Assembly (NCBI GenBank): GCA_951828385.1
Contig: OX639973.1
Location: forward strand, 1,364,001-1,428,000
DNA from: an uncultured Poribacteria bacterium
GTDB lineage: Bacteria > Poribacteria > WGA-4E > WGA-3G
DNA length: 64,000 nt
Reading direction: 5' to 3'
Part shown: positions 3,085 to 45,625 of the stretch, piece after piece
Numbering within the stretch: the first letter of the stretch is position 1
Layout of the letters: each line of letters starts with the position of its first letter
Made by a program: the position numbers and the translations under genes
Notes under the pieces: generated by a model
Database searches by the model: none
What the model saw: the letters and a program-made list of their open reading frames with translations, nothing else
What the model was told of the DNA's origin: nothing

Positions 3085-4638
3085 TTACCCTTCAGATCTG
3101 ATCTGAATGAGCTTATTAACAGCGTGGATGTATGCGCGGGCACTTGCTTCAATGATGTCCGTGCTGGCACCGTGTCCGGTGATGATGTGCCCGTTGTCCT
3201 GCACCTTCAATGAGACTTCACCGATAGCATCTTCGCCCTCGGTTACGGAACGGATCTGATAGTCGATGAGATTCAGTTGGATGTCAACAACCTGACCAAT
3301 CGCCTTAAAGGCTGCATCAACAGGTCCATCACCAGTTGACGCTTTTTCAACCACGCCATCTTCCGTCCGAATCCCGACTGTCGTTGTCGGTGAAATTTTC
3401 GTTCCACTGACGACTTGGATATAGTCGAGTTCAAAGACAGCAGGGATGGCGCGAATTTCATCGCTCATGATCGCTTCAAGGTCGGCATCCTGCACCGCTT
3501 TTTTCTTATCAGCGACCCTCAGGAATCTTTCATAAACCTTGTCTAACTGTTCAGCATCCACTTCATAGCCGAGTTCGCTGAGTCGGTGTCTGAGTGCGTT
3601 GCGTCCGGAACGCGGACTGAGGACGAGTTGACTCTCTTTCCACCCAATCTCTTTCGGATCAATGATTTCAAACGTCACTCGCGATTTGATGATCCCGTCC
3701 TGATGGATACCAGAACTATGCGCGAAGGCATTCGCACCGACAATCGCTTTGTTCGGTTGCACGGCGATCCCCATCGTTCGGCTAACACGCCGACTAATCG
3801 GGACGATCTCTTTCGCGTTAATCTCGGTGTAAAATTCTTTGAAATAGTCACGCCGAGTGCGGATCGCCATGACGACCTCTTCGAGTGAAGTGTTCCCGGC
3901 ACGTTCGCCGAGCCCGTTGATTGTGCATTCGACCTGACGCGCGCCTTGCTCAACCGCTATCAAACTGTTCGCTACTGCCAATCCGAGATCGTTATGGCAG
4001 TGGACACTAATAATGGCATCGTCAACGTTCGGGACATTTTCCATGATACCTTTAATCAGATTACCGAACTCCGTTGGTACTGTCCATCCGACGGTTTCTG
4101 GAATATTGACGACAGTTGCCCCAGCAGCGATAGTCGCTTCAACGACTTCATAAAGAAACGCTAACTCTGTGCGTCCCGCGTCCATCGGTGAAAATTCCAC
4201 ATTCGCATCCGAGTGTCCTTCACAGAGACTTTTCGCGTAAGCGACGGCATCCGTTGCCATTCGGAGTGTATCTTCGGGTGTCGTTCGTGTGATGCGGCCC
4301 ATGTGAATCGGTGATGTACCGACAAAGGTATGGATACGCGCGCGCGGTGCGTCCTCAATCGCTTTCCATGCCGCAGTAATGTCTTTCTCTACAACGCGAG
4401 AGAGCGCGCAAATTTCCGGGCCTTCAACTTCGTTTGCTATCCGTTTGACAGCCTCAAAATCACCCGGTGACGAAATTGGAAATCCAGCTTCAATGACATC
4501 CACATTTAATTTCGCGAGATGCTTGGCAATCTCAAGTTTTTCTTGGATACCAAGAGCAGCACCGGGAGTCTGCTCGGCATCACGGAGTGTTGTATCAAAA
4601 ATATAGACTTTCTGCTGGTTGGTTTCAAAATCGTCCAA
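3085..4638 (-). CDS. leuA: 2-isopropylmalate synthase
   Basis: First committed enzyme of leucine synthesis; condenses acetyl-CoA with 2-oxoisovalerate. About 517 residues, the usual length. The TIM barrel begins VYIFDTTLRDAEQTPG (the family norm is RDGEQ; here Ala replaces Gly), has HCHNDLGLAVANSL (metal-binding HxH, near residue 205), NGLGERAGN, and HSSGIHQDG; the C-terminal regulatory LeuA dimer domain (about 390-517) includes VSLKVQDNGHIITGHGAS. The start is probably TTG at 4638 because GGAGGAAAG lies eight bases before it; an upstream TTG at 4653 overlaps the ribosome site. It lies 236 bases downstream of aroF on the same strand with a repeat block between. Confidence 0.95.
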   Translation of the reverse strand: MDDFETNQQKVYIFDTTLRDAEQTPGAALGIQEKLEIAKHLAKLNVDVIEAGFPISSPGDFEAVKRIANEVEGPEICALSRVVEKDITAAWKAIEDAPRARIHTFVGTSPIHMGRITRTTPEDTLRMATDAVAYAKSLCEGHSDANVEFSPMDAGRTELAFLYEVVEATIAAGATVVNIPETVGWTVPTEFGNLIKGIMENVPNVDDAIISVHCHNDLGLAVANSLIAVEQGARQVECTINGLGERAGNTSLEEVVMAIRTRRDYFKEFYTEINAKEIVPISRRVSRTMGIAVQPNKAIVGANAFAHSSGIHQDGIIKSRVTFEIIDPKEIGWKESQLVLSPRSGRNALRHRLSELGYEVDAEQLDKVYERFLRVADKKKAVQDADLEAIMSDEIRAIPAVFELDYIQVVSGTKISPTTTVGIRTEDGVVEKASTGDGPVDAAFKAIGQVVDIQLNLIDYQIRSVTEGEDAIGEVSLKVQDNGHIITGHGASTDIIEASARAYIHAVNKLIQIRSEG

Positions 4639-4686
4639 GGCTCTTTCCTCCAATATTAGTTATCAGTTTGCTTCGCAGTGAGAATA

Positions 4687-4874: not shown

Positions 4875-5891
4875 CTACATTTCACGCCCGACGGCGATAG
4901 CAATAGGTTTCAGCTCTCGCATGAGTGTCTCAAATTGATCTGGGAACAGCGACTGTGCACCATCTCCCGTCATCGAATGATCCGGATCGTGATGTACTTC
5001 AAGTAACAGCCCATCGGCACCGGCAGCCACAGATGCTTTCGTCATATCACAGACCAAGCTTCGGATACCGGTGCCGTGGCTTGGATCAACAACGATTGGA
5101 AGGTGGCTCAATTCGTGAACGACGGGTACCGCGTTCAGGTCAAGTGTGTTGCGTGTATGGGTTTCAAATGTACGAATGCCACGCTCACATAGGATAACAT
5201 CCGGGTTTCCTTCCGCGAGGATATATTCGGCGGCAAGCAGCCATTCTTCGATTGTTGCGGACATCCCGCGCTTGAGGATTACCGGTTTCCGCGCGCGTCC
5301 GACCTCACGTAACAGGTAAAAATTCGTCATGTTCCGGGTCCCGAGTTGGAACATATCTGTGTATTCACCGACGAGTTCCACCTCGTGTGGGGTCATCACT
5401 TCAGTGACGATACCGAGTCCAGTTTCGTCTTTCGCTGCTTTTAGCATCTTGAGCGCACTTTCACCGTACCCTTGGAAACTATAGGGACCCGTTCTCGGCT
5501 TAAACGCACCGCCTCTGATGAAACTCGCGCCTGATTTTTGAACCAATCGGGCAATGGTCACAATTTGTTCTGTGCTCTCTACTGCACAGGGACCAGCGAT
5601 AACAGGCAACTGCTTTCCACCAATCTTTGTGCCATTCACTGCAATAACTGTCGGTTCTTCCCGAAATTCGCGGCTCGCCAACTTGAACGGCGCCGTAATC
5701 GGCATTGTTCGTTCAACACCGGACATTGACTCTATCGGAATATCACCAAGCAATGTTTTATCTCCTATGACACCGATGACCGTGTGCCGTTCACCGGTTG
5801 AGACTTGTGCTTTCAACCCCACACTTTCGATCCGTTTTACAACAGCATCAATATCTGATTGCGTTGCATCGGTCTTGGTAACGATTACCAT
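4875..5891 (-). CDS. aroF: 3-deoxy-7-phosphoheptulonate synthase (DAHP synthase), type I beta
   Basis: Catalyses the first step of aromatic amino acid synthesis from phosphoenolpyruvate and erythrose 4-phosphate. About 338 residues. An N-terminal ferredoxin-like regulatory domain ([18 protein letters not shown] ... HTVIGVIGD) is followed by the TIM barrel with [40 protein letters not shown] and VVDPSHGTG (metal ligands Cys, His, Glu, Asp of the family). The ATG at 5891 matches the family start; TTG at 5900 is an alternative. The N-terminal domain in relatives binds Tyr for feedback inhibition. The 5' leader carries a Tyr-codon-rich peptide and a terminator, so transcription attenuation is likely too. 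Confidence 0.95.
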
Positions 5892-5978: not shown

Positions 5979-6020
5979 AAAAAAAATTACCCAACATCGA
6001 ATTTATTTTCAACGCTGGGT
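5979..6020 (-). terminator. Leader terminator (attenuator) upstream of aroF
   Basis: On the minus strand ACCCAGCGUUGAA pairs throughout with UUCGAUGUUGGGU (13 pairs, three or four of them G-U) around an AAUAAA loop (6002-6007), followed two bases later by eight U. It lies about 90 bases before the aroF start and downstream of the aromatic leader peptide. An upstream element UCACCACC (6018-6025) overlaps the base of its 5' arm and can pair instead with GGUGGUGA (6072-6079) at the end of the leader peptide. Confidence 0.8.
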
Positions 6021-6071
6021 GGTGATACTGGAATCCGTTAATCATACAATTGAGGCATTACCTACGAACCT

Positions 6072-6122
6072 TCACCACCTATCGTTGCCGTACAAATATA
6101 AGTACAGATACAGATAAAACAC
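6072..6122 (-). CDS. Aromatic leader peptide of the aroF attenuator
   Basis: A short reading frame ends FYLYLYLYLYGNDRW-stop: five Tyr codons alternating with Leu, plus Phe and Trp just before UGA. A GUG at 6122 with AAAAGG seven bases before it would give a 16-residue peptide; the frame is open further upstream (to about 6311), so the start is uncertain. The codons for Arg-Trp-stop themselves form GGUGGUGA, which can pair with the base of the aroF leader terminator. A ribosome stalled for lack of charged tRNA-Tyr would leave this segment free (antitermination); one reaching the stop would cover it (termination). The layout is that of classical attenuators; the Tyr specificity is inferred from codon content. 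Confidence 0.72.
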   Translation of the reverse strand: MFYLYLYLYLYGNDRW

Positions 6123-6433
6123 AAACACGCCTTTTAACAGCAAACTGCTGCTCGCAAGCCGCGTAAAAAGAGCCCAAGCGTTGAGAGTGTTACTCTGAAC
6201 GATCCCTACACCGGTTATCTGTGTTGCGATGGTATTGCGTTCAAGCATTCGCATTATCAAGTTCCTCGAATCGGGCACCAAAAAAACATGCCCACAACAT
6301 CTCAAAAACAATTTATACTCTTAAGACGTTATTGAGAAAAAAACGTTTAGTCTTTGTAATAGGGAAACTACGTTATGTGTTCTAAACTTCCTAAACAGAA
6401 ACAGTAGCGTCCTCTACCACTGACTTTAATTAT

Positions 6434-6462
6434 ATGATAACACATTTTTTTATACAAGTCAA
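6434..6462 (-). promoter_or_regulatory. Sigma-70-type promoter for the aroF leader
   Basis: TTGACT (6457-6462) and TATCAT (6434-6439) on the minus strand, spacer exactly 17 bases. A TATAAT overlaps just downstream. It would give a long leader covering the aromatic peptide and attenuator. Confidence 0.6.
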
Positions 6463-45430: not shown

Positions 45431-45460
45431 TTTTGGGGTCCTATGGGGTATCTTAATAAC

Positions 45461-45496
45461 AAAAAAGCCTCTCCCGTCTGATGTGACGAGAAAGGC
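45461..45496 (-). terminator. pyr leader attenuator terminator
   Basis: GCCUUUCUCGUC pairs fully with GACGGGAGAGGC (12 pairs, ACAUCA loop) followed by six U, 30 bases before pyrR. A longer frame for pyrR would have to translate it. Confidence 0.9.
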
Positions 45497-45564
45497 ATCA
45501 TCCAACTAATTCCGATGGACAATCTAAACTTTGGGTCCGATTCTGATTGTGATCTTGCATCCTT

Positions 45565-45594
45565 TTTTCAACCTCTCTGGATTGGATTAAAAAG
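45565..45594 (-). promoter_or_regulatory. PyrR-binding anti-antiterminator loop
   Basis: On the minus strand AAUCCAGAGAGGUU (45570-45583) fits the PyrR consensus ARUCCNGNGAGGYU exactly: stem AAUC/GGUU and hexaloop CAGAGA. A lower stem CCUUUUU/AAAAAAGG lies around it. Together with the downstream terminator this is a PyrR-type attenuator. Confidence 0.88.
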
Positions 45595-45625
45595 GTTTTA
45601 ACACGAACGCTCCATTTATCCTTAT

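Follow-up and report, generated by a model that had tools for sequence, protein, structure and literature searches.

The region analyzed lies ahead of aroF on the minus strand of a 64,000-nt stretch of DNA (the window) from a sponge-associated Poribacteria bacterium, and coordinates are given as positions in this window. The aroF product, the enzyme that opens the aromatic amino acid pathway, carries a PF00793 catalytic domain and a PF18152 ferredoxin-like regulatory domain, assigning it to DAHP synthase class I-beta, and its nearest entries in the PDB were chimeric and Thermotoga-type enzymes. The next gene is leuA, which is probably part of the same transcription unit. Between a promoter and aroF lie a leader ORF with a ribosome-binding site, a run of Tyr codons and an intrinsic terminator (Table 1). 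The initial annotation had described this arrangement as a classical attenuator with a Tyr-rich leader peptide. The elements it named were correctly placed, namely, the peptide tail FYLYLYLYLYGNDRW-stop ending at 6072 (-), the 13-pair hairpin at 6020..5989 and the eight T at 5986-5979. The Tyr-rich character of the leader also held, but the leader is not a short frame; it encodes 60 aa (56–72 aa in the genus), and only its tail had been seen. The proposed interval of 5979-6122 was likewise too short, as the ORF begins at ATG 6254 and the promoter occupies 6462-6434.

Table 1. Features of the aroF leader region, and related elements elsewhere in Poribacteria (positions in the window unless a genome coordinate or locus is given)
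Feature	Position or locus	Strand	Remarks
Promoter, sigma-70-like	6434..6462	-	TTGACT-17-TATCAT; 5' of leader
Shine-Dalgarno of leader ORF	6261..6267	-	GAGGAAC; 6 nt ahead of ATG; read from sequence
Leader ORF, 60 aa	6072..6254	-	MRMLERNTIATQITGVGIVQSNTLNAWALFTRLASSSLLLKGVFVFYLYLYLYLYGNDRW-stop; ATG at 6254; frame intact in 35/35 genus genomes
Regulatory run, five Tyr codons	6090..6116	-	TAT CTG TAT CTG TAC TTA TAT TTG TAC
Antiterminator 5' strand	6072..6087	-	CAACG..GGUGGUGA; final leader codons and stop
Antiterminator 3' strand	6010..6025	-	UCACCACC..CGUUG; overlaps terminator 5' arm
Intrinsic terminator hairpin	5989..6020	-	13 pairs, 6-nt loop; ACCCAGCGTTGAA-AATAAA-TTCGATGTTGGGT; covariation
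Terminator U tract	5979..5986	-	8 T
aroF	4875..5891	-	DAHP synthase class I-beta with ferredoxin-like regulatory domain; ATG 5891
leuA	3085..4653	-	2-isopropylmalate synthase; next gene after aroF
T-box matches, window's genome	G000:C1:5156302-5156587; G000:C1:4885265-4885489		away from aroF leader
Tyr leader, tyrS	L157, L165, L220; phylum-level L214		L157 ..LGLYLYLYCNGRW; L214 ..PYFYYTYQYVYSLLS..
Tyr leader, class I-alpha DAHP synthase	L159-161, L163, L164, L169		
Ile leader, ileS, window's genome, outside window	L204 = G000:C1:3268435-3268525		..RAIFIMIAIRRAVVG-stop; conserved in genus
Ile leader, ileS, family	17 further copies read		typically ..ISIIIAIRRAVVG
Ile leader, ileS, order-level	L162		..SIGIISIIIIIPSCDGG
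Ile leader, cimA	L215		..AVIAIIIIIRIAAPCVVGGG
Leu leader, leuS	L207		..LRLRLLGLLRLKSVVG

Several other elements were observed nearby. A further terminator-like hairpin is located at 6402-6422 (-), immediately 3' of the promoter and ahead of the leader ORF. A repeat of approximately 39 nt, GGTGCAGCTTGCAAACCGAAAACTTGCTATTRAAAAGAC, lies between the terminator and aroF at seven related loci (L002, L004, L005, L009, L011, L024, and L027), and a sequence like it is also inserted in frame within the leader ORF of L002 and L009. Elsewhere in the window, an Rfam PyrR binding site (RF00515; 55.1 bits, threshold 54), a pyrimidine attenuator, was found at 45458-45598 (-).

The leader was compared among 35 genomes of the same genus carrying the aroF leader region; the genomes compared are mostly metagenome-assembled, and the named relatives are Candidatus Poribacteria MAGs. 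All 35 retain the leader frame, with 56–72 codons ending in AGG-TGG-TGA, and most of these loci have an AGGA-type Shine–Dalgarno sequence and an ATG. Indels in the genus leaders preserve the reading frame, and no in-frame stop occurred in 2172 codons, versus 60 and 64 stops in the other two frames. Pairwise omega (NG86) fell from 0.54 in the N-terminal part to 0.15 over the stretch that begins with the Tyr run, which indicates strong purifying selection on the C-terminal part; constraint is highest at the Tyr run and the antiterminator codons. Every genus member has 4–6 Tyr codons in the run, and Tyr never changes in the four core columns, although TAT and TAC interchange. Between these columns Leu predominates, but Phe, Val, and Met also occur, and Leu is less strictly kept. 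No Pfam match was obtained for the leader peptide. A start of transcription upstream of the leader is supported by a conserved sigma-70-like promoter, TTGACT/TTGACA-17-TAT(T/C)AT, at 32 of the 35 genus loci; the available upstream sequence is shorter than 160 nt for L003 and L032, and L029 gave just a different match at another position.

The initial annotation had proposed that the last leader codons are complementary to the base of the terminator. This complementarity is exact: GGUGGUGA (6079-6072) pairs with UCACCACC (6025-6018), with GG-UGG-UGA at the end of the leader lying against the terminator base. The pairing continues through CAACG/CGUUG (6087-6083 / 6014-6010), so that the antiterminator is longer than first described. 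The predicted duplex and the terminator are mutually exclusive, the 5' strand is placed 3' of the codon run, and in the genus the leader stop codon sits within this strand. The window duplex reached -21.5 kcal/mol versus approximately -11.4 kcal/mol for shuffled leaders, and the Tyr run, the antiterminator strand, and the terminator were all kept in 35/35 genus genomes; the complementarity is thus beyond chance. All parts of the switch were also kept in 17 of 18 further loci of the family, the remaining one being cut by a contig end, and in seven order-level loci. AroF identity across the order was 74–90%, with 74–79% for the order-level relatives. In 51 sequences, 97.3% of the terminator cells were paired, and 18 cells had changed on both sides. 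Hence, both the conservation and the covariation that would be expected in relatives of a genuine attenuator were found.

Because family and order use different antiterminator registers, order-wide pairing on one MAFFT alignment was dropped, and duplexes within each genome were compared with swapped ones. In order-level relatives, the typical sequences are GAUGGUGGGC for the leader strand and GCCCAUCAUC for the terminator arm. Leader and arm from the same genome gave -21.7 kcal/mol for the family and -20.5 kcal/mol for the order, whereas family leaders with order arms gave -11.5 kcal/mol, a value as weak as that of shuffled leaders, and order leaders with family arms gave -14.8 kcal/mol. Because complementarity persists within genomes while swapped pairs weaken, this comparison indicates that the antiterminator itself has been rewired by compensation between family and order. 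The distance from the codon run is also kept. A Tyr codon lies 13 nt ahead of the antiterminator core at 35/35 genus loci and 11–13 nt ahead at most family and order loci (frames of L037 and L042 assigned by eye); L039, L049, L051, L053, and L059 are exceptions, the first four of them having another codon in place of the key Tyr.

These data bear on an alternative in which the upstream ORF is a gene for a small functional membrane peptide, the hairpin is its ordinary terminator, and no switch exists. The ORF is indeed long for an attenuator leader, and its C end is hydrophobic. However, selection is only weak over the N-terminal part and strongest at the Tyr run and antiterminator codons, compensatory rewiring has preserved the pairing of the leader end with the terminator, and in ten order-level genomes the same hairpin was found only before genes matching the codon run. 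A membrane peptide is accordingly considered very improbable.

The effect of ribosome position was simulated by blocking an assumed ribosome footprint on transcripts cut before the 3' arm of the terminator. When the A site lay on the Tyr codons as far as codon -6, the antiterminator formed in most genus genomes; with the A site from codon -5 to the stop, it was lost (P ≤ 0.05) in 35/35. In the full-length fold, the window's own copy showed an antiterminator probability of just 0.05–0.68 at the Tyr codons, owing to competition from upstream leader RNA, and the probabilities for L032 and L033 were also low. A protector (1:2) hairpin was strong in several relatives and weak or absent in the window's leader. 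In the equilibrium fold of the complete leader RNA, the terminator was always preferred, without discrimination; therefore, the decision would have to be kinetic, as in known attenuators. Codon position, compensatory rewiring, and ribosome-occluded folding all agree with classical attenuation and lend in silico support to the earlier proposal that ribosome position acts as the switch.

The region is very probably a ribosome-mediated transcription attenuator of aroF, and probably of leuA as well, that senses charged tRNA-Tyr and belongs to a codon-swapped family in Poribacteria. The ORF, the codon run, the terminator, and the kept and rewired complementarity are established by sequence comparison; from these, we infer ribosome stalling, termination, and a response to Tyr. 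In the proposed mechanism, transcription would start at the conserved promoter, and a ribosome would translate the 60-aa leader. When Tyr-tRNA is scarce, the ribosome would stall within the Tyr run and leave CAACG..GGUGGUGA free to pair with UCACCACC..CGUUG once this is transcribed, which would prevent the terminator and allow transcription of aroF. When Tyr-tRNA is plentiful, the ribosome would reach the stop inside the antiterminator strand and cover that strand, and the terminator would form.

The alternation YLYLYLYLY raises the question of whether the leader senses both Tyr and Leu, with shortage of either charged tRNA opening the aroF–leuA operon. In 29 of 31 named Poribacteria loci, leuA follows the class I-beta DAHP synthase gene, and Leu alternates with Tyr at approximately 90% of the four positions in the genus. 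Several observations argue against a dual sensor: Phe, Val or Met takes the place of Leu in several genomes, whereas none of the four core Tyr columns varies; the homologous tyrS leader L157 also reads LYLYLY, although no leuA follows; and in L214, a tyrS leader at the phylum level, Tyr alternates with other residues. Combined sensing of Tyr and Leu is thus quite unlikely. At L164 and L169, leuA follows a class I-alpha gene; the association of the Tyr switch with leuA therefore persists even when the DAHP synthase is of another class.

Also unlikely is a sensor without Tyr specificity that responds to aromatic residues in general (Tyr and Phe) or to translation speed. The leaders of genus g3 read LYPFLY or LFPFLY, with 1–3 Tyr codons and some Phe, and the Phe-Tyr-Phe aroR leader of Corynebacterium glutamicum is described in PMC11802643 as responding to Phe and not to Tyr. 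Against this, Tyr occupies every second codon in the window's genus and intervening Phe is rare, paralogous attenuators have swapped their cognate codon runs, and at least two relatives carry a separate T-box for Phe sensing, ahead of pheS. The preferred reading therefore remains a sensor of charged tRNA-Tyr.

T-boxes do occur in the Poribacteria genomes compared, at approximately two per genome, and coexist with the attenuators; for this reason, the idea that attenuators replace T-boxes was dropped. A T-box riboswitch, or any other leader that binds tRNA or a metabolite, is nevertheless extremely improbable ahead of aroF, given that the region matched no Rfam family at threshold, including the T-box (RF00230), and that the translated leader with its Tyr run accounts for the anatomy. 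Furthermore, the T-boxes of the window's genome lie elsewhere, and the five read in relatives (L236-L240) precede ilvB (acetolactate synthase) and pheS.

Covariance models of the whole switch (R1) and of the antiterminator strand and terminator alone (R2) matched related switches elsewhere in Poribacteria whose leaders have matching codon runs (Table 1). The tyrS and leuS genes and both DAHP synthase classes were named via NCBIfam. For cimA and argD, the names rest on N-terminal fragments alone, and ileS was named by eye, the copy in the window's genome also by a PF00133 match. The switches ahead of class I-alpha DAHP synthase occur in genomes without an ortholog of the window aroF or with only a distant one. 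Four ileS leaders (L171, L217, L218, and L222) showed no clear Ile richness in the frames tested. In the window's genome, no such attenuator was found ahead of tyrS, leuS, valS, trpS, pheA, trpE, tyrA or hisG. In G057:C46 and G060:C152, tyrS adjoins aroF, and each gene has its own Tyr attenuator. Two single, weak cases are an Arg-rich leader ahead of an argD-like aminotransferase (L219) and a Met-rich leader (L228) ahead of a gene that received no name in the protein scan and that we take to be a putative homocysteine biosynthesis gene.

Other matches were rejected. L158 and L224 turned out to be bare terminators, L209, L205, and L229 look decayed or unrelated, and hisS (L210) and thrC (L230) lack a clear codon run. 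At L205 (G000:C1:5755685-5755787) and L229, an apparently decayed ileS-like attenuator stands before a secreted protein of other function.

The match between codon run and gene was evaluated by permuting gene labels over 32 loci, one per genus and gene, with a statistic that ignores relatedness. Cognate codon content was 0.231 versus 0.131 for permuted labels (maximum 0.198), and none of 20,000 permutations was as high. The 16 loci outside model building gave 0.236 versus 0.128 (0/20,000). In addition, the pattern GCCCATCATCGA..CGRTGRTGGGC, representing the exact terminator hairpin, occurred at 19 places in ten order-level genomes, all of them attenuators already identified at aroF, class I-alpha DAHP synthase, tyrS, ileS or leuS, and the reversed pattern occurred nowhere in these genomes. 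This distribution shows that the ten genomes do not use the hairpin as a common terminator, which favours common descent of the modules. Taken together, it is likely that Poribacteria possess a family of homologous leader-peptide attenuators in which one antiterminator/terminator module has spread by duplication or recombination and the codon run has been exchanged for each gene, including the single Arg (argD-like) and Met cases, as a ribosome-based counterpart used beside T-boxes.

The switch resembles the trp/his/pheA-type attenuators of Proteobacteria in its translated cognate-codon leader, its exclusive antiterminator and terminator, and the decision by ribosome position. It differs in phylum, in the 56–72-aa leader, in the stop within the antiterminator strand, in the inconsistent protector hairpin, and in a terminator module common to unrelated genes. 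To our knowledge, the attenuator leaders of E. coli have no such common module. Leader-peptide attenuation of aminoacyl-tRNA synthetase genes is represented by the pheST leader of E. coli (Springer et al., 1985, as cited in PMC11802643) and the histidine leader ahead of hisZ and hisS* in Bacilli (PMC2965389); these concern single genes, whereas tyrS, ileS, and leuS here share one module across the phylum. T-box riboswitches also combine one architecture with exchangeable codon specificity at aminoacyl-tRNA synthetase and biosynthesis genes. They bind tRNA directly, whereas the sensor here would be a ribosome translating the codon run.

The initial annotation considered attenuation of a DAHP synthase gene by a Tyr-rich leader to be undescribed in this phylum, and our search of the accessible literature likewise retrieved no paper joining Poribacteria with attenuators or T-boxes. 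Such attenuation is, however, known in other phyla. An aromatic-codon leader precedes a DAHP synthase gene in C. glutamicum aroR-aroF (Neshat et al., 2014, via PMC11802643; PMC4046766); its codons are Phe-Tyr-Phe and it is Phe-responsive, whereas the Poribacteria leader has 4–6 Tyr codons, belongs to another phylum, and has no known sequence in common with it. The uORFC-13-1 motif before aroF of Acholeplasma, predicted to be an attenuator, similarly combines a uORF and a terminator, but is described as having Phe codons from a U run and a different structure, and is found in Mollicutes (PMC8632094). An aroF attenuator sensing Tyr-tRNA has also been listed for Shewanella, drawing on older E. 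coli studies (PMC2659441). The mechanism of attenuation is thus already known, and the new part appears to be the shared, codon-swapped module.

These results extend the range of ribosome-mediated attenuation to a phylum without cultured model strains, with a DAHP synthase leader that looks Tyr-specific. They also make it testable whether leader-peptide attenuators arise anew each time or spread by copying, as the order-level genomes contain related copies in which copying and fresh origin can be traced. The findings suggest that attenuators can make up a true family, passing on the switch and exchanging just the codon run, as in T-boxes.
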